Source: Sipunculus nudus
Taxonomy: Eukaryota; Annelida; Sipuncula; Golfingiida; Sipunculidae
Reading direction: 5' to 3'
DNA length: 64,000 nt
Assembly: GCA_026874595.1 (NCBI GenBank)
Contig: CM049309.1
Coordinates: 19,347,576-19,411,575, forward strand
Every line of letters begins with the position of its first letter. The first letter of the stretch is position 1. The notes under the pieces are model-generated. The model made no database searches. It saw nothing but the letters and a program-made list of their open reading frames with translations, and was not told the DNA's origin. Made by a program: the position numbers and the translations under genes. Positions 4,450-63,589 of this stretch are shown here, one piece after another.

Positions 4450-7400
4450 CCCTGCTGTATTAACTGCAGACAGCCTGAATTAGCTCAACAAAGAGAGAGG
4501 GCTTGCAGGAGTGATGGGATTACATAACAACACCCTGGGCACAGAGAGCTATACAGTATAATACTGAATGACCTACAGTGACCCCTAGTTGGCTGCTTGA
4601 CAATGTAAGGAAAATACAACAAGAGCCTCCACAAAAAATCAATAACTAGCCTAATTTTTTAGCTTTTATTATTAAATTTAAGATTTTAACAGATTAAATC
4701 CTTGTGTGTACATGCTGTGAATATAAAATCCACAGTACATACTGGAAAAAAACGTGCCATGGCCAAAGTTAGGCAAATTTAAGGTACTGATTTTATATTT
4801 ATGCTTATAACTTGAAAAAATTGCAAAATTCAGATCTAATTTTCAATGTACAATTGAGTCTTGATTAAATGAAGTTATATCCCTGTAAAAAAGTCTCTAG
4901 CTTAAAAAATTATTATGTTGAGTGAGTAAATATATTTCCTTATTTTTTTTTTCAAGTTGCATTATGTTTGGGCCCATAAGTTCAACAAATTACGCAAAAC
5001 TGACCTAATTTTTGGAATGTACATAGGAAATGTATGGAAGAATATGCATATTTACTATGATCAAATTCAGATCACAGGTTTTGATATTAGGCATTCCTGA
5101 AGTGTAAAAATTATTTTAATAAAAAAATTGAGGTTTTCCTTAATTTCTCAAAGAAAAAAAGTCACAGAGACCCAGTTTTTGGCTTGGAAGGAGATCTTAG
5201 GGACATCTAACATTATGGCAATTTTTGGATTACCAGGCAAAGTGGTAGTAAACAAAAGTGGGGTCATGATGCTAGAAAATACAAATACATCAAGGCCTCT
5301 AAAAAACTCCAATAGCTAGACTATTTTTTAAGCTTATACTATCAAATTTCAAAATTCATCAGATTAAATCCATATGTAAACTGGCTGTGAAAATTAAATC
5401 AACTGTACTTACAATAAAAAAATGTGCCATGGTCAAAGTTGGGCAAAATTTAAGGTACCATTTTTTTATTTTTGCTAATATTTTAAAAAATTTTAAAGAT
5501 TTTGATCTAATTTTGGGTACAGAATTTAATTTTGATTAATTAAAGTTATATTACTGGAAAAAAAGTCCTTAGCTTTGACATGTTTTGTGTTAAGTGATCA
5601 AATATCTTTCATGATTTTTTACAAAATGCATCATGTTTGAGCCTTTAACTTTTTAAAATTATATAATACAGACCTAATTTCTGGCATGCATATAGGAACT
5701 ATAAAGAGGAATATTTATGGTAAATATGAGGAAAAACAGATGAGTGGTTTCGAAATAAGGCAGTCCTGAAGTGTGAAAATAGGTTTTTAATAAAAAATTG
5801 AGGTTTTTCCTTAATTTCTCAAAGGAACAAAGTCGCAAATATCCAGTTTTCGGCTTGGTAATAGATCTTGGGGACATCTAACATTATGCCGAATTTTGGA
5901 TGCCTAGGTCTTACAATGTTTTGTGACAAGTTCCATTAAGATCTATGAAAACGCCATGAAATATTGTGTTCATCAACATGTAAGCATATGTAAAAACATT
6001 ACCCTCCCTACTTAACTTGCATTACTTGAAGGCCCTGTGATTTGAAGTGATACCTGGCTCAACTAGCCAATGTTATATACACATATATATATATAATAGT
6101 GAGGTTCATCGTAAAGGGACTAGCCATGCTATTCACATGAGTGAATTCTAGTCCAAACTTTTATAATGCAATCCTTAATTTATGTCATGTCCAGGGCTGC
6201 ATAATGCAAGAAACACTTTCTCTCCAATATCTAATTATTATGGTCTGAATGCAAGTTCAGCATTCAAAGGGACCTCAAACTGGAAGTTTTTTTTATCTAC
6301 TTATGTCAGTGCACTCAATTTCCACTCAAAACATACAATAAACCTAGTCTTCTATGTACATAATTTCATTATTTCTCCTTTGTAGACATTATATTCAGTC
6401 TCCCACAGGTAGATTTGTATCAAAATCCGAAATTGCTTAGAATTCCTATTCATAACATGCCATAAATCTAGTCTCCTATGGACATAGTTCTGATATTACT
6501 ACAGGGGACAAAGGAAATTTATACCAAAATGTCATTAGTTCATCACACATTGTGCTTTTTACTTACATTCATGGATGTATTCCTGAAGCCCTCTGGTCTT
6601 CACCAGAGCAAGGATCAGGAAGAGAATAAGAGGCCATATTAACTCCACAGCCACACGGACCTGAAATGTATGACAACATATCAACTCCATAGCCACACGG
6701 ATCTGAAATGTATGACAACATATCAACTCCACAGCCACACGGATCTGAAATGTATGACAACATATTAACTCCACAGCCAAAGGGATCTGAAATGAACGAC
6801 AACATATTAACTCCACAGCCACACAGATCTGAAATGCATGACAATATATTAACTCCACAGCCACACAAATCTGAAATGTATGACAACATACCAACTCCAC
6901 AGCCACATGGATCTGAAATGCATGACAACATATCAACTCCACAGCCACATGGATCTGAAATGCATGACAACATATTAACTCCACAGCCACATGGATCTGA
7001 AATGCATCATCAACCATTTCCTCTTTTTCTCCCCTTACACGGCAATTAACATCTGGTCTTGGACAAACCAGAAGCAAGCAGCTAAAGGGTTTTTTAGAGC
7101 TTGTTTCAGAGATGACATTAACAACATTTTGAAATGTACTTGCAATCTACATCTGTGACATAGATATACCAGTAAAAAAAGAGATATTAACAATATTTGC
7201 AGCAAAATAGTCTCTCCCTCCCAGGACATGGAACTGGGTAGATGGGGTTACACATAAAGTTTTGTATAAATGTCCAAGAATATTGTAGTTCTGTATAAAG
7301 ACCAGGTCAGGTTGAACAGGTTTGTCCAAACCAAGCAACCCCCCCCCCCCCAGCCTACTTCCCTAAACTTATCAATCCCATAGACATACAGACCTGAGAT

Positions 7401-35994: not shown

Positions 35995-37684
35995 CTAGAT
36001 GTGTTGGAATGACACGAATGCCCCCACCTGGGGCAAATTAGAAACATTTCTTAAATTTTGAAATTTTTTTAAGTTCAGGAGGTGTCATATGGTCAAAAGT
36101 AGGTCAACAAGGGCAAAATGCAAACTTGATCTGTTACGGGTCATTATCAAGCAACACACCAAAAATCAGGCCAGTATCTGCAGGCACTATGAAAAAAAGT
36201 CCATACATGTGCATTTTCCATAAAAATTTCTGTCTTTCATGAAATTTTCTATGTTTAGGAGCCGTAAAACAATCAAAAGTAGGTCAACCGGGATGAAATG
36301 CGAACTCGATCTGTAACTGTCATTATCTGCCCACACATAAAAAAATCAGGGTGGTATCTGCAGGCATTGAGGAAAAAAAGTCAGTACATATGCATTTGTT
36401 ATGAAAATTTCTATTTTTCATGAAACTTTCTATGTTCAGGAGCAGTCAAATGGTCAAAAGTAGGTCAACTGAGACAAAACAAGAACTTGATCTGTAACTG
36501 GTCATTATCTGCCTACACACCAAAAATCAGGCCTGTATCTGCAGGCATTGCGAAAAAAAGTGCGTACATGTGCACTTTTTTAATAAAATTGTCTATGTTA
36601 GAGCCCAGTCAAATGGTCAAAAGTAGGTCAACTGGGACAAAACATGAACTCGATCTGTAACTGGTCAATATCTGCCCATACACCAAAAATCAGGCCAATA
36701 TCTGCAGGTATTGCAAAGAAAAGTCTGTACATGTACATTTGTCATGAAAATTTATATTTTTCATGCAATTTTCTATGTTTAGGAGCTGTAAAACAATCAA
36801 AAGTAGGTCAACCGTGACGAAACGCGTTCTCGATCTGTAACTGGTCATTATCTGTCCACACACCAAAAATCAGGCCAAAATCTGCAGGCATTGCAAAAAA
36901 AAGTCCGTACATGTGTATTTGTCATGAAAATTTATATTTTTCATGAAATTTTCTAAGTTAAGGAGCTGTAAAACGTACAAAAGCAGGTCAACTGAGACGA
37001 AACGCGAACTCGATCTGTAACTGGTCATTATCTGCCCACACACCAAAAATCAGGCCAATATCTGCAGGCATTGCGAAAAAAAGTCTGTACATGTGTATTT
37101 GTCATGAAAATTTCTATTTTTTTTATGAAATTTTCTAAGTTAAGGAGCCATTAAACATACAAAAGTAGGTCAACTGGGATGAAATGTGAACTTGATCTGT
37201 AACTGGTCATTATCTGCCCACACACCAAAAATCAGGCCAATATCTGCAGGCATTGCGAAAAAAAGTCCGTACATGTGTATTTGTCATGGAAATTTCTATT
37301 ATTCATGAAATTTTCTAAGTTAAGAAGCCGTAAACAGGTCAAAAGTAGGTAAACCGGGATGAAACGCGAACATGATCTGTAACTGGTCATTATCTGCATA
37401 CACACCAAAAATCAGGCCAATATCTGCAAGCATTGCGAAAAAAAGTCCGTACATGTGTATTTGTCATGAAAATTTCTATTTTTCATGAAATTTTCTAAGT
37501 TTAAGAGCCGTAAAACAGGCAAAAGTAGGTCAACCGGGACAAAACGCAAACTCGATCTGTATCTGTAATCAGGCCAATATCTGCAGGCATTGCGAAAAAA
37601 AGTCCTTACAACTGTTTTTTTCAGAATGACGGAAGGACGGACATGGGTAAAACTATATGCCCCGGCCACTTTGTGGCGGGGGCA
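35995..37684 (+). mobile_element. Rolling-circle-like element, family R, carrying a 180-bp satellite
   Basis: Starts CTAGATGTGTTGGAATGACAC (GTGT..ACAC hairpin), then AATGCCCCCACC, an inverted match to GGCGGGGGCAT at the right end. It ends in the hairpin 37658-37684 (GCCCCGGCCAC TTT GTGGCGGGGGC). Between them are about nine units of roughly 180 bp, recognisable by ccaaaaatcaggccaatatc, tgcaggcattgcgaaaaaaa and gatctgtaactggtcattat, starting near 36176, 36356, 36537, 36701, 36881, 37061, 37243, 37423 and 37580. No protein-coding frame. Confidence 0.85.
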
Positions 37685-41130: not shown

Positions 41131-42146
41131 ATGGGTCAAGGTCACCCATCTTCGAACTTGACTGAGATTTTATCGATATACATCTTCACTGATGAAATAA
41201 AATTCCAACCGTGAAGCCGTGAATCCTTTAAGAAAGATCCTGCTCACAAGGTTAAAGTTAACAGACGCGGACGGACGGACGTCAGACGGACAGACAGACG
41301 GACGGCAAGACAGCCCGACGGATGGACAGCTTGGGTGACAACAATAGCCCATCAGCCTATGAGCTGAGGGCTAAAAACAGCTGTACATGTACATTTGTCA
41401 TGAAAATTTATATTTTTCATGAAATTTTCTATGTTTAAGAGCTGTAAAACAATCAAAAGTAGGTCAACTTGGACGACACGCGAACTCAATCTATATCTGG
41501 TCATTATCTACCTACACACCAAAAATCAGGCCAATATCTGCAGGCATTGCGAAAAAAAGTCCGTACATGTGTATTTGTCATGAAAATTTCTATTTTTCAT
41601 AAAATTTTCTAAGTTAAGGAGCCATAAAACATACAAAAATAAATCAACTGGGATGAAATGCCAACTCGATCTGTAACTGGTCATTATCTGCCCACACACC
41701 AAAAATCAGGCCAATATCTGCAGGCATTGCTAAAAAAAGTCTGTACATGTGTATTTGTCATGAAAATTTCTATTTTTCATGAAATTTTCTAAGTTAAGGA
41801 GCCGTAAAACGGTCAAAAGTAGGTCAACTGGGACGAAACGCAAACTCGATCTGTAACTGGTCATTATCTGCATACACACCAAAAATCAGGCCAATAATTG
41901 CAAGCATTGCGAAAAAAAAAAAAACGTACAACTTTTTTTCGGAATGACGGACATGGGTAAAACTATATGCTCCGGCCACTTTGTGGCGGGGGCATAAAAA
42001 TCAGAAATAGCAGGTGGAACCAAAATTGTGCAGCATGTATAGACCATCAGTCCCAATGATCATAGTAAGTTTTGTGAAAATCCACACAATGGTTCCCGAG
42101 ATATAAGCTTCTGAGTATTTTTCTATAATCAGCTCTAAAATGAAGA
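41131..42146 (+). repeat. About 1-kb tandem duplication unit 1 (family S end + 180-bp units + family R end)
   Basis: Begins aatgggtcaaggtcaccc, passes the family S hairpin 41346-41372 (AGCCCATCAGC..GCTGAGGGCT), then about three 180-bp units, the family R hairpin 41968-41994 and the conserved tail. The opening text restarts at about 42147. Confidence 0.8.
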
Positions 42147-42995: not shown

Positions 42996-43188
42996 TCAAA
43001 TCTAATTTGAAACAACCTTGAACCTGCAGCATACTGAAGTAAACTTTTTATATGTTTAATAATTTCACTGAAGAACAAAGAAGGGTTGATTCCAGTAAGC
43101 ACACATGTAATTTTGCAAGTAAAGGAACTATATATTATGGTAAAATATTAATGGAATCTGTAATAATTCTGATTAGTAAGGATAGCGT

Positions 43189-43466
43189 CACAAGCTGTCA
43201 TAGAGGAACCAGACGTCATGAATATTGCATAAATACTCTGTCCTCACAAGCTGTCCTAGAGCAACCATACGTCATGAATATTACATAACTACTCTGTCAT
43301 CACAAGCTGTCATAGAGCACCCAAAGGTCATAAATATTACTGAACTACTGTCATTACAAGCTGTCATAGAGCAAACATACATCATGAATATTACATAACT
43401 TCTCTGTTATCACAAGTTGTCCAAGAGCAACCAAGAGTCTCAAATATTACAAAAATACTCTGTCAG
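43189..43466. repeat. About 56-bp tandem array, 5 units
   Basis: Units with cacaagctgtcatagagcaa, then tacgtcatgaatattacata and actctgt; later units diverge. Confidence 0.9.
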
Positions 43467-50400: not shown

Positions 50401-53400
50401 ATTTTGCATTATTTCTGGAGTGCTCAAACATACTCAAAAACCCTGAGAATATAGGTCACAATGACCGAATTTCAGGTTTTTGGGGAGAACTTTTGAGGAA
50501 TTCTCAGGATATCAAGTTAGAAGATTCTGGGCCCAATGGTTATGATTTGTGCCCTACTTTGGTTTTAAATTTTCAGTTCTTATAAGACCCATAGCTAAAA
50601 AAATATGGGTAACAGAGACTATTCTGGGCCCAATGGTTATGATTTGTGCCCTACTTTGGTTTTAAATTTTCAGTGCTTATGAGCCCCATAGCTCAGAAAA
50701 TATGGGTAACAGAGACCTAATTTCACGTTTCCTAGGAGACTTTTCATGGACCTCCTTGGATTTTAAGTTAGAAGATTTCAGGTCCAATGGTTATGATTTG
50801 TGCCCTGCTTGGTATCAAATTTTTAACTATGCTGGGGGGGGGGGGGGGGGTGCTTATAAGCCCCACAGCTCAGAAAATATGGGTAACAGAGACCTAATTT
50901 CAAGTGTCCAAGGATATTTTTCTCAGACCTCCCTTGATGACAAGTAAGAAGATCCTAGGACCAATGGTTAAAATTTGTGCCTTGTTAATGGACGACCACA
51001 CCTTTAAAGGTCTAAAAAATAGAGCAAAAAAGGGTTAAACTTTTAAAAAATCAAGGTGGCGCAACCAGTCTGTAGGATCTTATGAAAGACTCCATGATCA
51101 ATATGCATACAGAGAATCATGGTGATAAATGCATTCATTGTTCAGAAAATGGATCTTTATATCATATTTTTAATTATTCTTGGGGGTATTTCTGAGCCCC
51201 ATAGCATGGAGAATATGGGTAACAGAGACCTAATTTCAGGTTTCACATGAGACTTTTCATGGATCTCCCTGGATGTCAAGTTGGAAGATTCCAGGTCCTG
51301 TGGTTAGGATTTGTGCCCTGTTAACAGATGAACGCATCTTAAGAGGTCTCAAAAATAGAGAAAAAAATTTGTAAAAATAAAAAAATACAGGTGGCGCTAC
51401 CACACTGCAGAAACTGATGAAATATTCCATGATCAATATCCATGCAAAGAGTCATGGTGATCAGTGCAATAGTTGTTCAGATACCTGAGCTTATGTTTCA
51501 AATTTTCCATTTTTCTGGAGGTTACTTCAGAGCTCAAAAGTTCAGAGTTTATGGGTAACAGAGACCACAGAGACTTCATGGGCCTCCCTGCATGTCAAGA
51601 GAGAAGATTCTAGGTCCAGTTGTTACAATTTGTGCCATGTTAACAGATGACCACATCTTAAGAGGTCTAAAAATGAAGAAACAAAATCGTAAAAATCGAA
51701 AAAATACAGGTGGCACCACCAGTCTGCAGAAACTGATGAAACATTCCACGATCAATATCAATGCAAAGAACTAGAATATGGGTAGTCGACAAGCGACTAC
51801 GTGTATCCGCCAAAATCAGAGACGAGTGAAGGGAGGCATGGATTGAGTGGCAAGGGAAAATAGAGTTACATGTGTTACATATTAGAATGGATCTCTGCCA
51901 CATAAACATGATTGTAGGTGGCGCCACCTGTTATTTGAACGAGAATCTATCCAAGATGTATAAATATGCAAAATTTCATGTGGAAAAGTCAAACCACTGC
52001 AGAGATATGAGTGATTTTATCCCACAGCAGACAAACAGATGGACGCTGTGCAAAAATGGCTGCAGGTGGTGCCACCATTTTTGTGTATGTAATAAAGCTA
52101 TCCAAGGGCTACATTTGTGTAAATTTTTTTACCTGATTGGTCAAACAGTTCCTGAGATATGAGCTTAAATGTCTGCAGCATGAACGTGAAGGTAGGTGGC
52201 ACCACCTGTCATAAAATCAAGAAAGCTATCTAGGATGTATACGCATGCCAAATTTCAGGTGAATTAGTCAAACCACTGCAGTGATATGAGTGATTTTAAC
52301 CTAAGGCAGACAAACAGATGGATGCTGTGCAAAAATGGCTGCAGGTGGCGCCACCATTTTTGTGTATGTTATAAAGCTATCCAAGGGCTACATTTGTGTA
52401 ATTTTTTTTTCCTGATCGGTCCAACGGTTCCCGAGATATGAGCTTGGATGTCTGCAGCGTAAACGTGAATGTAGGTGGCGCCACCTGTCATAAAATCAAG
52501 AAAGCTATCTAGGATGTATACGCATGCCGAATTTTAAGTGAATTTGTCAAACCACAACAGAGATATGAGTGATTTTAACCCAAGGTGGGATGAACAGATA
52601 GACACTGCAAACATGGTTGCAGGTGGCACCACCTTTTTTTGTGTATCTTATAAAGCTATCACAGGGCTACATTTGTGTAAAAAATTTTTCCTGATCGGTC
52701 AAACGGTTCCTGAGATATGTGGGTTTATGTGTGGAAACAGACGCACAAATGGAGGCTGGGCAGAGAGGAAAGGTCAGAGGTCAAGGTCACTTGGTTAGGC
52801 ACCAGTTCACATGTGACCCGATAAATTGTGTAAGTTTCGGAAAAATCCGTCCAGTAGTCTCAGAGGAGTTCTCCGGAAACGAACACGGCGGCGGAACCCA
52901 GTCAAAAACATAGTATCCGCAAAACTTTGTTTTGGCGGATACAATCATGGTGATCAATGCAATAGTTATTCAGATACTTGAGTTTTGTATTAAATTTTCC
53001 ATTATTCTTGGGGGTACTTCTGAGCCCCAAAGCTCAAAAGTTTATGGGAAACAGACCTAACTTCAGGTTTCCAAGGAGATTTTTCATGGACCTCCCTGCA
53101 TGTCAAGAGAAAAGATTCTAGGTCCAGTTGTTACTTTTTATGCCCTTTGACAGATGACTGCATCTCAAGGTCTCAAAAATAGAGAAAAAATTCGTAAAAA
53201 TAAAAAAAATACAGGTGGCTCTACCAGTCTGCAGAAACTGATGAAACATTCCATGAGCAATATCCATGCAAAGAATCATGGTTTTCAATGCATTATTTGT
53301 TCAGATACTGGAGCTTTTGTATCAAATTTTCTTTTATTCTGGGGGGTACTTCAGAGCCCCATAGCTCAAAGAATATGGGTAACAGAGACCTAATTCCAGG

Positions 53401-59400: not shown

Positions 59401-62400
59401 GTAGTTTGTTTGTTATATACAATGTACTTTCCTGTGATGCTGAAAACAGTACTTTACAAAACAGTACTTCATAAAACAGTACTTCACAAATCTGTTCATG
59501 CAATGATTTTCACTTGTGTTCACAGGAAACAGCCATTGTCAAATTCTAAACTAGCTATCTGAAATGTCTCAGACGTAGCTTTTTGTTTAGTAATCATTAT
59601 ATTACAATACTAAGACACCCTTACCTTTCACCTGTATTTGTTATTTTTTTTCACCCATGAAAAAGGATTATGCAAAAATGACTGAACCAATAACCATGAA
59701 TCTTTGGGGAGGGCTGGATATTGGCCTAGAATGACCCATTATATTTTGGAGCAAATCTGGATACAGCAGGCTAAACCAGTAGAATGCTTTAGCCTTGGCA
59801 GAGGCATAGACTCTACCAAGTACCCTCTAGTTCACCATTTACAATGATTTTCAAATTAAGTACTGCTTTCTCACAGCCCGATGAAGCTAGGACTATACAG
59901 ATAATCAGGTCTGTATGTTGGAAAGATTGACCACATGGTGGGAAGCGGGGATGGGGCATATATTTAGAACAAACAGCAATACCACATTTTTTCTAGTCAT
60001 ATGTATATCACTTGCAATTTAGAAGATTCTCTGTAATATGACATTCTCAATGGACTGTACTGACAAAATTTGTTTCAAATTTAAATGGGACAGATTTTTT
60101 TTACAGATAGATAACAGCTATGATTTCCAATTTTTCTTAGCTGAATCACAACTCATATGTATATCACTTGCAATTTAGAAGATTCTCTGTAATATGACAT
60201 TCTCAATGGACTGTACTGACAAAATTTGTTTCAAATTTAAATGGGACAGATTTTTTTTACAGCTAGATAACAGCTATGATTTCCAATTTTTCTTAGCTGA
60301 ATCACAACTCATATGTATATCACTTGCAATTTAGAAGACTTTACTGTAATATGACATTCTTAATAAAACTGCATAGTCAAAGGAGAGTCCCTACTACAGG
60401 CTGTAACTTTCAAATCATCCTCAGGTTTTCAATGAGGAGTAATGTTACTTAAATCAGCGGGTTAATCAAGAAACTGGATTGAGATCCTGGAAACTGATAA
60501 AAGGCCATCATACAATCCAATTGGTGCTAAAATCAAATTTAATGTAATTTCCCTGAAACATGGAATCTGAGCTGTTAAATTTATGAATAAGATGTAGTCT
60601 AGCTTCATACAAACACCAGAAACAGGCTTTGACTTTGTGTCTTATTTTTAAAAGGGGGGAGAGTTCAGTCCAGATAAACATTTGCAAGTGTAAGGAACCA
60701 TGTCCTCTAATGATCAGAAGACATGTTTGACCATTTGACCAGTGAACATACCATATCTTTAGCTTCAATGTCAGCACCATTTTTTAGCAGTAGATCGACA
60801 ATTTCAGTATGGCCTTCTTGAGATGCTACATGTAATGGTGTGCGGTCCACTTTGGTTCGTGCATCACGGCTGATCCCAGCACGCAGTAAAACTTCTGCTG
60901 TCAGTAAATGTCCAAACTGTGCTGCAAAATGGAGCGGTGAAGTCCCCAGCTGAAATAAAAGAAAATGTTCTCTTGAGCCTCGTTATACTGAGTAGAATGT
61001 TTCATTATCAATTAATACTTTAACACTAACAGAGATTAATACATTTGGGTTGAGATATATGCAGGATAACTCTATCCTAACCATTTTACATGTATTATCA
61101 CAGTGTTCAATCTTTTGTCAATCATTTTGGTTTAGATCATTTTTGGGGTTATCCTAATTTTAATTCACATCTACGCTAGTACTACCAGAAACCCATAATG
61201 ATAATTTTTTATAAATTTTGTCCTGAAAACAGAAAATGACTGAACTTTGTGTAAGCAAAGTTCTGATTCTGTCAGCATATAACAAGTGACCAACAGGTCA
61301 TGATGCTCAGCTGACCTGTGACAAAGAGAAATTCTATCAACTTAGATTGCTGTCATTTTAGCATGTTTGCAAACTGTGTCTGCAGCAGTTCTGAAGAACA
61401 TACCAAAGGGATTGCCTTCAACTTTCCATGGTGATAGAAACGTGTATATATTGCAATTTCTTTCATTAGTGCATTAAACATAAAAAAAACTGTTTGTTCA
61501 CTCCTATTGTGACATGTCAATCATGAACTAGTTTTATCTGGTATCAGAGATGCCATAGTATCCCCAAACAATTAAGGCATACCCCTAAGCAAAATAGGCC
61601 CCCTTTTTCAGAAGCACTTCTGACACTTGAGAAGGCCAAGGCCACCACAAATGTTTGAACTTGAAGGAGAGAATTCACATATCAAATTTGAACAGAAGGA
61701 AAGAAGTTTTTCAAAAGTTATTGGGTTCACAAAAATCCTATATCGGCATATGTGATCTTGAATGACAAGGTCAAGGTCACAGGTTTTCAAACATGTCATT
61801 TTGGAGATTTTGAAGAAAAAGATGAGCTAATTAAAATGTTATGGGGTTCACTAAAATCCTATATATTTGCAGAATTGACCGTGAAGACCCAGTTCATGGT
61901 CACCTTTCTTCCAACAAATGGCGATACTGGTGGAAATATTTTTTTGTGTCAAATCTGAAGGAAACTGATGCAGAAATAAAAAGTTACAGTTTTCAAACTC
62001 TTGCTAAAACTTATCATCTGACATCTTTTATTTGGATATTCATAAAAATACAACCATCCCCTTGAAAAACAATGTTTTATTTGTTTTTCACCAAACAATG
62101 GAAGTATTTAAGGTCAAGGTCACTCTCATAGTGTAGGTCATGATCTTAATTAGATCAATAGACTTAATCTGATACCTCAAATCTATGCATGTGCAAAATA
62201 TTAATGAAATGTGTCCATTTGTTTTTGACTTATAATGCATAAAGTTCAGTAAAGTGGCAATGATAAAGGTATTTTAAGATGCAAAAACAAGAAAATAATA
62301 CTAGGTGGCACCAGTCTCAAATAAAATACAAAGCTATCCAAGATCTTTGGTCAACTTGATTTTTGGACCAATCAATGCATCCTTTCTTGAGATATTAAAG

Positions 62401-63589
62401 ATTTTGTGTGATTTTCAACAAATATGGAAATATTAAGGGTCAAGGCCACTCTAATAGTAAAGGTCATGATCTTAATTTAAACAGACTTCATCCCATACCT
62501 CAAATCAATGCATATGCATAATATGAAAGAAATCTGTCCATCAGTTTCTGACTAATAAAGCTCACAGTACTGTAAAGTGGCAATGATTGTGGTATTGAAA
62601 ACAAGAAAAGGACAATAGGTAGCTCCCCCATTCTCGTGTACAACACAAAGCTATCCAAAATCTGGGTCAACTTGATTTTTGGACCAATCCATGCAATCTT
62701 TCTTGAGATATTTAAGATTTTGTGTAATTTTTACCAAAAATCAACTTATTCAAGGTCAAGGTCACCCTCCTAGTAGAGGTCATGACCCTATTTTAAAAAG
62801 GCTTTGTTCACTCACCAATATCTATGCACATGTAAAGTTCAGTAAAGATCTGTGGAACATTTTTTGAGTTATCGCCCAGACAAGATTTATGTGTTGCAGC
62901 GGTGGAACCATGCTAAAACCATAGTACCCCAGACAAATTGTCTGGGGATACAATTATAGGTCTGCAAATGTATTACTGGTTTTTAATATGTAAAAAAAAT
63001 TGCAATTGTGTCAGCAACAGTTCTGAAAAACAGGCTGAGATAATTTTCTTGTTATATGTACAAATGATGCACAATGTTTAAATTTTGTGTTTTGCAGTCT
63101 TGAAGTCTTGACTTTCTAAGTGTTTAAAAACAGAAAAATGTGTGTAACTCAAAATATAGGTCACAAAGACCTAACTTTTTGTACAAAAGGAATGACCATG
63201 ATATTTAGTCAGAGGTTTCTAGATTAAATGATTACAATTTATGTGCTGTTCATGAATGGGCCACCAGATGGCTGGTGGTCATCTGATCTATGGACATCTT
63301 GTGTGGCTTTCAAAAATCCATTTTAATATTAATTTGCATGACATTTTTAGTAATGTTATCAGGACTCCTGAAGGAATGGAGATGTGTTTGGTCTGTGACA
63401 CACAGAATGATCTATCAATAGATAATGAGATCTTGAGACCTATGGGATGATAAACCTACCCAGTCAGTGGTGAAGGGGGCCCCATTAGACATCAATGTCC
63501 TCACTTCATCCGTGTCGCCTCGTTTCGCTGCTTCAAGCAAGCTCTTTCCAAGGTCCACCAAGGACATTCTCTAAACCACAATCTGATGT
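47131..63589 (-). CDS. GABPB1: GA-binding protein subunit beta (GABPB), complete coding sequence in ten exons
   Basis: Family knowledge: GABPB pairs with the ETS protein GABPA through ankyrin repeats. It dimerises through a C-terminal coiled coil and activates nuclear genes for mitochondrial and basic functions. Seen: ten exons join without a phase error to 1434 nt, 477 aa plus stop (human GABPB1 is 395 aa). Residues 1-36 start [20 protein letters not shown] as in vertebrates. Ankyrin repeats continue to about residue 155 ([52 protein letters not shown]). The middle has the conserved [16 protein letters not shown] and RVITIVADQ activation-domain motifs. The end is a heptad coil ([20 protein letters not shown] and on). 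The extra length comes mostly from exons 5, 7 and 8. Introns hold many mobile elements. Confidence 0.97.
47409..48146. other. GABPB intron 9
   Basis: AT-rich intron with chance open frames (47741-47935). No embedded element recognised. Confidence 0.5.
48147..48237 (-). CDS. GABPB1: GABPB exon 9 (VITIV activation motif)
   Basis: 91 bp, enters in phase 0 and leaves in phase 1, acceptor tctctgcag, donor gtgagt. [12 protein letters not shown] and [11 protein letters not shown] correspond to human VITIVTDGIQL and GQPIIVTMPDG. The intron upstream is 5.5 kb and holds the nested elements at 50211-53566. Confidence 0.94.
48384..49152 (+). mobile_element. Rolling-circle-like element, family U
   Basis: Starts CTAGAATGAG after AAA, then a 5' hairpin TTTTGCATTGCAAAA, then ATGTCCCCC. 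The interior repeats GGTCAAGGTCACC-type blocks (near 48493, 48650, 48710, 48965) and has a long A run near 48797-48812. It ends in a hairpin TGTTTCCCC (49124-49132) with GGGGAGACA (49140-49148), then TAC. Lies in GABPB intron 8. Confidence 0.7.
49153..50210. other. GABPB intron 8, no gene seen
   Basis: The first 180 bp contain ttcgacacaa..gaaacctcttgtgtcatagtcg-type text with an inverted relative near 49280-49330 (short palindromic element). The rest is unique. Confidence 0.4.
50211..53566 (+). mobile_element. Family Q element, full length with a nested family P element
   Basis: The left end has TGACCCATGGGTCA (perfect palindrome) and gacactcaacc. The right end has acagacatccggacgg, then the hairpin 53530-53558 (AGCTCAGATGAC TTACA GTCAGCTGAGCT). 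The interior is made of about 250-400 bp blocks with tatgggtaacagagacctaa, tggacctccctgga.gt, aagattc.aggtcca and ctgcagaaactgatgaaaca. Element 51771-52944 splits one of these blocks. A poly-G tract sits at 50834-50850. No coding frame. Confidence 0.8.
51771..52944 (+). mobile_element. Rolling-circle-like element, family P, full length
   Basis: It starts CTAGAATATGG, then the 5' hairpin GTAGTCGACAAGCGACTAC and GTATCCGCC (51803-51811). The right end is the hairpin 52913-52942 (GTATCCGCAAAAC TTT GTTTTGGCGGATAC), then AA. GTATCCGCC and the terminal GGCGGATAC are subterminal inverted repeats. The flanks (caaagaa and tcatgg) rejoin to the uninterrupted text seen in sister blocks at 53265-53280, so both ends are exact and no target-site duplication was made. 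The interior has GGTGGCGCCACC at 51917, 52344 and 52474. 1174 bp, no coding frame. Confidence 0.9.
53759..53904 (-). CDS. GABPB1: GABPB exon 8
   Basis: 146 bp, enters in phase 1 and leaves in phase 0, acceptor attaccacag, donor gtagga. Encodes [20 protein letters not shown] and an acidic tract ending [10 protein letters not shown], directly before the RVITIV motif of exon 9. Confidence 0.9.
53905..54834. other. GABPB intron 7
   Basis: Unique AT-rich intron; no embedded feature recognised. Confidence 0.5.
54835..54957 (-). CDS. GABPB1: GABPB exon 7 (phase 1-1 cassette)
   Basis: 123 bp, phase 1 both ends, acceptor gaattttcag, donor gtatgt. Encodes [20 protein letters not shown] followed by a Ser-rich piece. 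No counterpart in human GABPB1 that I can place. As a symmetric exon it could be skipped without frame loss. Its start resembles the start of exon 8. Confidence 0.88.
54958..56021. other. GABPB intron 6
   Basis: Contains a TATATA/TCTATA-rich patch at 55120-55176; otherwise nothing recognised. Confidence 0.5.
56022..56120 (-). CDS. GABPB1: GABPB exon 6 ([12 protein letters not shown] motif)
   Basis: 99 bp, phase 1 both ends, acceptor atttttcag, donor gtaagt. [20 protein letters not shown] is almost identical to the human [18 protein letters not shown] segment, which fixes the exon firmly. Confidence 0.96.
56121..57787. other. GABPB intron 5
   Basis: Holds an (AAT)n run at 56247-56266 and a 22-bp direct repeat (aaacacaatggtgaactagt) at about 56589-56639. 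An isolated AGGTGGCGCTACC is near 56651. No gene. Confidence 0.5.
57788..57989 (-). CDS. GABPB1: GABPB exon 5 (acidic linker; acceptor 57989 or 58004)
   Basis: Two acceptors keep the frame: cctgtcattttacag before 57989 and gagatgtatcag before 58004, the latter adding five residues (PVILQ). The first has the better pyrimidine tract. A third AG further out (ctgatgcag) brings an in-frame stop and is out. Encodes [20 protein letters not shown] and a Thr/Glu/Val-rich stretch; leaves in phase 1 with donor gtaagc. Little sequence conservation with vertebrates here. Confidence 0.85.
57990..58662. other. GABPB intron 4
   Basis: AT-rich intron; nothing recognised apart from the alternative acceptors for exon 5 near its end. 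Confidence 0.5.
58663..58752 (-). CDS. GABPB1: GABPB exon 4 (last ankyrin-like repeat)
   Basis: 90 bp, phase 0 both ends, acceptor ttttgcag, donor gtaagc. [20 protein letters not shown] matches the human [20 protein letters not shown] unit. Confidence 0.94.
58753..59231. other. GABPB intron 3
   Basis: AT-rich intron; nothing recognised. Confidence 0.55.
59232..59330 (-). CDS. GABPB1: GABPB exon 3 (ankyrin repeat)
   Basis: 99 bp, exactly one 33-residue ankyrin unit ([14 protein letters not shown] to CENK), phase 0 both ends, acceptor tattttgcag, donor gtaaga. Confidence 0.96.
59998..60362. repeat. 156-bp tandem duplication in GABPB intron 2
   Basis: A unit starting catatgtatatcacttgcaa begins at 59998, again at 60154 and a third, partial time at 60310. 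The first two units differ at about one position, so the duplication is recent. Confidence 0.95.
60752..60949 (-). CDS. GABPB1: GABPB exon 2 (ankyrin repeats)
   Basis: 198 bp, phase 0 both ends, acceptor ttatttcag, donor gtatgt. Encodes [14 protein letters not shown] and [20 protein letters not shown], ending IEAKDM, matching the human second and third ankyrin units. Confidence 0.96.
61286..61500 (+). mobile_element. 5' fragment of a family Q-like element
   Basis: acaagtgaccaacaggtcat, then gatgctcagctgacctgtga resembles the Q 5' end (hairpin plus CTCAGCTGA). The right border is not visible. Confidence 0.4.
61528..62953 (+). mobile_element. Rolling-circle-like element, family T
   Basis: Starts CTAGTTTTATC after AA; the 5' hairpin is GGTATCAGAGATGCC. 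GTATCCCCAAACAATT at 61558-61573 is an inverted repeat of the right end AATTGTCTGGGGATAC. The 3' hairpin is a 21-bp palindrome at 62927-62947 (CCCCAGACAA A TTGTCTGGGG), followed by ATACAA and T. Interior blocks: aaggtcaaggtcac (61768, 62114, 62753), aagctatccaagatc, tctttcttgagatatt. 1426 bp in GABPB intron 1, no coding frame. Confidence 0.8.
63460..63589 (-). CDS. GABPB1: GABPB exon 1 of the coding sequence (ATG at 63567)
   Basis: Acceptor atttttcag before 63589, 22 nt of leader, then ATG at 63567-63565 and 36 codons to TTDW; donor gtaggt. The N terminus is nearly identical to vertebrate GABPB1, so the start is secure. At least one non-coding exon must lie upstream, outside the window or unrecognised. 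Confidence 0.95.

Follow-up and report, generated by a model that had tools for sequence, protein, structure and literature searches.

A 42-bp minisatellite across the boundary between intron 1 and exon 2 in an ABCA1/4/7-type lipid-transporter gene of Sipunculus nudus

Intron 18 of human ABCA7 carries a VNTR with a 25-bp unit, the first two bases of which are the exon 18 donor, in 12 to ~427 copies (PMC5954066). In that report, retention of one unit is described, and skipping of exon 19 rises with array length while unit retention does not. The minisatellite of the human interferon-induced gene IFI6 (6-16) supplies multiple splice donors and gives three mRNA species (Turri et al. 1995, as summarized in PMC4526556; reference entry PMC2572611). 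A potato RdRp gene acquired an intron through a tandem duplication that spanned an intron-exon edge (PMC4974935). In human genes, variable internal tandem repeats located where exons meet introns, with an average unit of 30 bp in four copies, can create splice variants (PMC2812944).

Here, we describe an array that resembles each of these systems in part. With ABCA7 it shares the transporter subfamily of the host gene and a minisatellite that includes a splice site. However, the ABCA7 repeat lies on the donor side, has a frameshifting 25-bp unit, and is intronic from the GT onward, whereas the present array lies on the acceptor side of a different intron and has eight copies of an in-frame 42-bp unit, 26 of its 42 nt being exon derived. 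As in the account of IFI6 in PMC4526556, repeat units offer alternative splice sites at one exon edge, although these are donors in the human gene and acceptors here. The potato duplication likewise reaches from the last part of intron 1 into exon 2, bringing with it a branch site, a pyrimidine tract, and a 3′ splice site; one duplication gave a new intron there (PMC4974935), while eight copies are present here and a new intron is only a candidate. The human boundary repeats are also minisatellites at exon-intron boundaries, but the genes concerned lie in segmental duplications, and the available text of PMC2812944 describes novel introns and coding repeats and no acceptor ladder. Among the matches listed in a literature search of open-licence PMC papers, none was an acceptor-side in-frame repeat array. 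The kind is known, and the present case is its acceptor-side, in-frame, multicopy variant.

The array, its junction, and the host gene

The window, that is, the whole 64,000-nucleotide stretch of S. nudus DNA that was analyzed (GCA_026874595.1, contig CM049309.1), contains a tandem array at 6635-7004 with a period of 42, 8.8 copies, 92% matches, and 0% indels (TRF). With head-to-tail copies, a unit between 10 and 100 bp, and at least a few copies, it is a minisatellite by definition. Splitting the minus strand at TTTCAG sets the unit boundaries and resolves the array into eight full 42-bp units (6996-6661) that directly abut exon 2 (Table 1). Each unit comprises ~16 nt of intron end, including TTTCAG, followed by 26 nt of exon start. 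An earlier note on this DNA had placed eight 42-bp units directly against the exon for the first membrane helix and had read each as a copy of the junction; TRF and the TTTCAG splitting bear out the former, and the splitting bears out the latter. Nine TTTCAG acceptors, all in one frame, result, and they are named here by their first exonic bases: 6996, 6954, 6912, 6870, 6828, 6786, 6744, 6702, and 6660. In sequence, this is an alternative tandem 3′ splice site, i.e., at least two credible acceptors of one intron sharing the same donor. The array is a junction-spanning minisatellite at intron 1/exon 2 of an ABCA1/4/7-type lipid-transporter gene.

Table 1. Features of the array, the adjoining exons and intron, and the upstream repeat (window positions)
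Feature	Start	End	Strand	Remarks
Coding part of ABCA exon 1, starting at ATG (MGFGTQLKLLLWKNFTLRKRQP)	10617	10682	-	donor GTATGT starts 10616
Intron 1	6661	10616	-	3956 nt if proximal acceptor used
Old dispersed repeat, truncated	7009	7312	-	extent is that of the best match; ~300 bp or more
Unit 1 (IHVAVELICCHAFQ)	6955	6996	-	distal acceptor 6997/6996, 2.1 bits; nearest YTNAY TTGAT 14 nt upstream
Unit 2 (IHVAVELICCHAFQ)	6913	6954	-	acceptor 6954, 8.5 bits; branch-site match TTAAT at 21 nt
Unit 3 (IHVAVELVCCHTFQ)	6871	6912	-	acceptor 6912, 8.5 bits; TTGAT at 21 nt
Unit 4 (ICVAVELIYCHAFQ)	6829	6870	-	acceptor 6870, 7.9 bits; YTNAY absent at 12-60 nt
Unit 5 (ICVAVELICCRSFQ)	6787	6828	-	acceptor 6828, 8.6 bits; TTAAT at 21 nt
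Unit 6 (IPLAVELICCHTFQ)	6745	6786	-	acceptor 6786, 11.0 bits, top score of nine; TTAAT at 21 nt
Unit 7 (IRVAVELICCHTFQ)	6703	6744	-	acceptor 6744, 7.7 bits; TTAAT at 21 nt
Unit 8 (IRVAMELICCHTFQ)	6661	6702	-	acceptor 6702, 7.7 bits; TTGAT at 21 nt
Exon 2 (94 nt), VRVAVELIWPLILFLILALVKTRGLQEYIHE(C), first membrane helix	6567	6660	-	acceptor 6660, CAG|GTC, 9.8 bits; donor GTAAGT at 6566

The units vary at 10 of 42 positions, with a mean pairwise identity of 91%. Their second codon is CAT in units 1-3, TGT in units 4-5, and CGT in units 7 and 8 and the exon; such sharing of variants between neighboring units would be the pattern left by local duplication. On the intron side, the most distal acceptor agrees with the units over the last 11 nt only (ATGCATTTCAG). 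When one assembly (1,426,538,692 bases, 153 contigs) was searched with 7100-6561 as the query, the array was covered at one place only, the window's own locus; the search skips simple repeats and common words, so this single-locus result does not amount to proof. The array as a dispersed or multilocus repeat was not supported, 35 of the 36 genome matches falling within 7100-7009 (query positions 1-92). Rarity of the TTTCAG spacing was also rejected: three TTTCAG at 42-nt steps occur 232 times genome-wide (110 forward, 122 reverse), and the reversed control pattern has 84 matches (31 and 53), with overlapping matches counted apart. The special feature of the array is its position on the splice junction, not the 42-nt spacing. 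Other repeats of this genome commonly have TTTCAG spaced 42 nt apart.

The 7100-7009 portion of the query belongs to an old dispersed repeat. Its identity to the 39 other places that were scored, out of 128 candidates, is 70-81%. Fifteen other copies were aligned, and most of them run on past the point where the array starts, indicating that the copy here is cut at the array's outer edge. Its purine-rich end (GGGGAGAAAAAGAGGAAATGG) stands where the branch site and pyrimidine tract of acceptor 6996 would be. Many other copies of the dispersed repeat have G-runs and C-runs.

Exon 1 and exon 2, joined at the proximal acceptor, gave an ungapped alignment to ABCA4 residues 1-54 (E 1.9e-12), and the same 54-residue N-terminal segment also matched ABCA7 and ABCA1. 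The N-terminal segment and first membrane helix are conserved with phase and length kept, as expected of an ABCA1/4/7-type gene. Because it is ungapped, the ABCA4 alignment fixes phase 0 and identifies 6660 as the acceptor that keeps the conserved length; it is the only one of the nine that does so. Exon 3 matched ABCA4 (E 8.5e-10) and was the sole frame of its query with a match to ABCA4, ABCA1, or ABCA7 at E 0.01 or better; the other frames, picked by eye as putative later exons, had no match at E 0.01. A further exon with a Walker A motif (GHNGAGKTTTM) lies ~24.5 kb past the window's low end. Given the N-terminal alignment, the exon 3 match, and the Walker A exon, the host looks like a living ABCA1/4/7-type gene.

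A genome search for paralogues gave eight matches. Two are the gene itself, and another pair corresponds to exons 1 and 2 in a single paralogue on C2, where an intron of identical position and phase has a pyrimidine-rich end (TTCTGTTTTGTGGTTTGTTTTTCAG); no array was present in the sequence examined. The remaining two matches on C2 (16953767 and 53594017) have alignment ranges that extend beyond the junction position. For the copies on C10 and C5, exon 2 was not found with a strict motif in ~10 kb beside each.

Acceptor strength and predicted branch sites

Acceptors were scored against a profile of 26 acceptors of this genome (21 from clathrin heavy chain, 4 from this ABCA gene, and 1 from the C2 paralogue). 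The reference junctions were picked by eye, aided by the clathrin sequence, and three of the four sites from this ABCA gene belong to exons without confirmation by ABCA matching. Candidate rows numbered 24 for clathrin and 11 for ABCA, and three further motifs gave nothing. Rows with unclear exon edges were excluded (clathrin TCDGLAS, VMAVKVIG, and SMEFLMDIV; ABCA GKYHTSP, FEFVGAAKVG, LVTFHQQLRK, and HQEAMDPFL), as were two ABCA rows duplicating a counted junction and the array's own junction. Leave-one-out scores of the reference acceptors ranged from 0.3 to 15.7 bits (n = 26). Against these, eight of the nine array acceptors, all but 6996, are mid-range (7.7-11.0 bits), a level reached by 5 of 199 other intron 1 AGs (median, -4.9). 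Acceptor 6996 is low at 2.1 bits, yet 3 of the 26 real acceptors score lower still. G at +1 is present at 6660 alone among the nine and at 17 of 26 reference acceptors; 7 of the 26 have A. Naive weighting by score gives 19% to 6660 and 44% to 6786, and softer weighting gives 16% and 23%, respectively. We take this weighting as a sign of plausible leakage and nothing more, and the score model, with 26 eye-chosen sites of which 21 come from one gene, does not separate the array sites sharply.

Branch points were predicted as motif matches. YTNAY, as TTAAT or TTGAT, lies exactly 21 nt before the exon at seven of the nine acceptors, and in those seven the match is exon-derived DNA (Leu-Ile codons) of the preceding unit. 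The exon-derived TTGAT of unit 8 (A at 6681) is thus the candidate branch site of the proximal acceptor 6660. Acceptor 6996 has YTNAY matches at 14 and 50 nt. Unit 3 reads TTGGTATG (TTGGT) where the others read TTGATATG, TTAATATG, or TTAATATA, leaving acceptor 6870 without a branch-site match; since YTNAY is also absent at 12-60 nt in 2 of the 26 real acceptors, the missing match need not disable 6870. The earlier note had called the nine acceptors equivalent. This description overstates the case: seven of the eight upstream copies are mid-range, but 6996 is low, 6870 has no branch-site match, and 6660 alone has the +1 G.

At all nine acceptors, the previous AG is 22 nt back. PMC1431707 describes the choice of the first AG that follows the branch point and an AG exclusion zone, and also mentions exceptions. 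Under this first-AG rule, and with the preceding AG only 22 nt away, each acceptor, 6660 included, should use a branch point within or near those 22 nt, which for 6660 would lie inside the array. Even with 6660 as the sole acceptor in use, the array would then probably not be inert, because the sequence outside it lies eight acceptor AGs away.

Reading frame of the units

No stop occurs through all eight units in the exon frame, in which the repeats encode VAVELICCHTFQ-type residues, and use of any acceptor upstream of 6660 would add 14 residues per unit in frame where the first membrane helix begins. An insert of all eight units would comprise 112 residues with a mean hydropathy of 1.28; its best 19-residue window reaches 2.02, versus 2.39 for the helix itself. 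Both the stop-free frame and the in-frame addition, the latter through the phase 0 fixed by the ABCA4 alignment, agree with what the earlier note had put forward. Its further suggestion, that retention of an open frame in eight diverged units is telling, did not hold up. The probability of no stop is 0.60 for 12 mutation events and 0.43 for 20, and a second sense frame likewise has zero stops, so the open frame was rejected as evidence of function; one antisense frame has one stop. Among the distinct differences between units, 10 of 12 are nonsynonymous and 2 of 12 synonymous, where the neutral expectation is ~1/4 synonymous (P for 2 or fewer = 0.38). Neither the synonymous excess nor the improbable absence of stops that would mark a protein-coding repeat under selection was found.

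The sequence CATTTCAG is kept in eight of eight units and at the real junction. As evidence of selection this was set aside: 8 nt would escape all of 12 events with a probability of 0.08, and these 8 nt were singled out post hoc. The constancy of CATTTCAG across the copies is no more than suggestive. Variable sites number 8 of 26 in the exon-derived part and 2 of 16 in the intron-derived part (Fisher P, 0.27).

A match of a 195-codon frame to a galaxin-like repeat (Pfam PF24748) was set aside as chance (E 0.059; 13.7 bits versus a cutoff of 28). In antisense, on the plus strand, a 118-codon open frame with PHGSEMYDNISTPQ-type repeats runs through the array at 6693-7049. Just outside unit 1, an ATG at 7017 followed by GTT GAT GAT GCA TTT CAG (7017-6997) opens the array frame.

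Splice-site choice across the array

The reading we favor, at somewhat better than even, is one of leaky competition: acceptor 6660 would make the normal transporter, some transcripts would use upstream acceptors to give in-frame +14n isoforms, and the branch point of 6660 would lie inside the array. The minisatellite would have arisen when the boundary between intron 1 and exon 2 was duplicated in tandem, the original intron end having been displaced by the dispersed repeat and a deletion, in an order that we infer. Splicing would then be a competition among the array acceptors, in which 6660, the sole CAG|G of the nine and the sole site of conserved length, yields the normal transporter while use of at least one upstream acceptor reaches a detectable level. 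The 14n moderately hydrophobic residues added between the N-terminal segment and helix 1 would be tolerated rather than selected. Because the nearest AG upstream of 6660 is only 22 nt away, the branch point of this proximal acceptor is predicted inside the array. The array would then not be inert, nor would it be a built adaptation; it would be a neutral, slippage-prone substitute for an intron end. Human ABCA7 offers a precedent in its splice-site VNTR, of which one repeat unit is retained in transcripts; the same source also reports that unit retention is unchanged with VNTR length, which counts against (PMC5954066). Owing to its +1 G and to exon definition by the 94-nt exon, 6660 could be used almost exclusively, with no ladder, and the naive scores, by putting most splicing upstream, are hard to square with the conserved length unless the inserts are harmless. 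A bolder reading, which we regard as unlikely, would make the array a self-sufficient ladder of acceptors: exon-derived branch points would alternate with intron-derived AGs, each 42-bp slippage would add a complete 3′ splice site and a 14-residue step, array length would tune the transporter N terminus and isoform mix between individuals, and the gene would depend on its own repeat for splicing.

Close behind leaky competition stands the main rival, a serious contender that nevertheless falls well short of an even chance, in which only 6660 is used and the upstream copies are silent decoys in a neutral array, the last unit possibly being lent as a branch site. The +1 G of 6660, a base shared with 17 of the 26 reference acceptors, fits this reading, as do the conserved ABCA length and the absence of coding constraint in the unit substitutions (2 of 12 synonymous; P for 2 or fewer = 0.38). 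It is harder to reconcile with seven of eight upstream copies that are mid-range and nearly identical to 6660, one of which, 6786, scores above it, or with the use in transcripts of a repeat-unit splice site of ABCA7 (PMC5954066). Quite improbable, by our estimate, is a new intron, whereby an upstream acceptor opens a short exon ending at the GGTATGT of unit 3 (GT at 6891), and this donor then joins 6660 or some other acceptor farther downstream, leaving in-frame inserts of 7 codons (21 nt) or longer, as in intron gain by junction duplication. Between 7010 and 6600, GGTA(A/T)G, GTATGT, or GTAAGT is matched only in unit 3, the GTATGT of this unit is the same hexamer as in the real exon 1 donor, the 21 nucleotides at 6912-6892 are in frame (IHVAVEL), and the potato junction duplication is described as giving a new intron via a cryptic GTAAG donor (PMC4974935). 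Yet a 21-nt exon is very short, and the putative donor depends on one substitution in one unit. Transcription could instead start from a promoter in the adjoining dispersed repeat, with an unspliced 5′ end whose translation begins at the 7017 ATG and reads across the array and on into exon 2 (MVDDAFQ, then eight units); the segment 7017-6997 shares the frame of the array and of exon 2, but the product would be without the conserved N-terminal segment, and we give this route very little credence. Least probable of all is an assembly artifact in the copy number or in the whole array: one assembly was used and no second haplotype copy was found in the genome match search, but a stuttered assembly would hardly make diverged units (mean identity, 91%) with variants ordered along the array.

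The first-AG rule, branch-point strength, and exon definition are factors in models of 3′ splice-site choice. To our knowledge, such models have mostly been tested with few competing sites in minigenes. This locus presents a native gene with nine near-identical in-frame acceptors at fixed 42-nt steps, in which any choice could be read as mRNA length and in which the acceptors differ by few natural substitutions, including one branch-site loss, one +1 G, and one stronger tract. Use of more than one acceptor would show a way in which slippage extends the coding sequence stepwise at the edge of an exon; use of a single one would show how strongly one base or exon definition decides.

Tandem repeats abound in the window (47 TRF rows). 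Arrays of 180-bp units with a ATTTTTCATGAAAATTTAT-like palindrome lie at 36059-37565 and 41383-41918, and further arrays lie at 43188-43465 (56/110-bp units), 51888-52719 (279 bp), 59997-60364 (156 bp), and 62085-62804 (316 bp).
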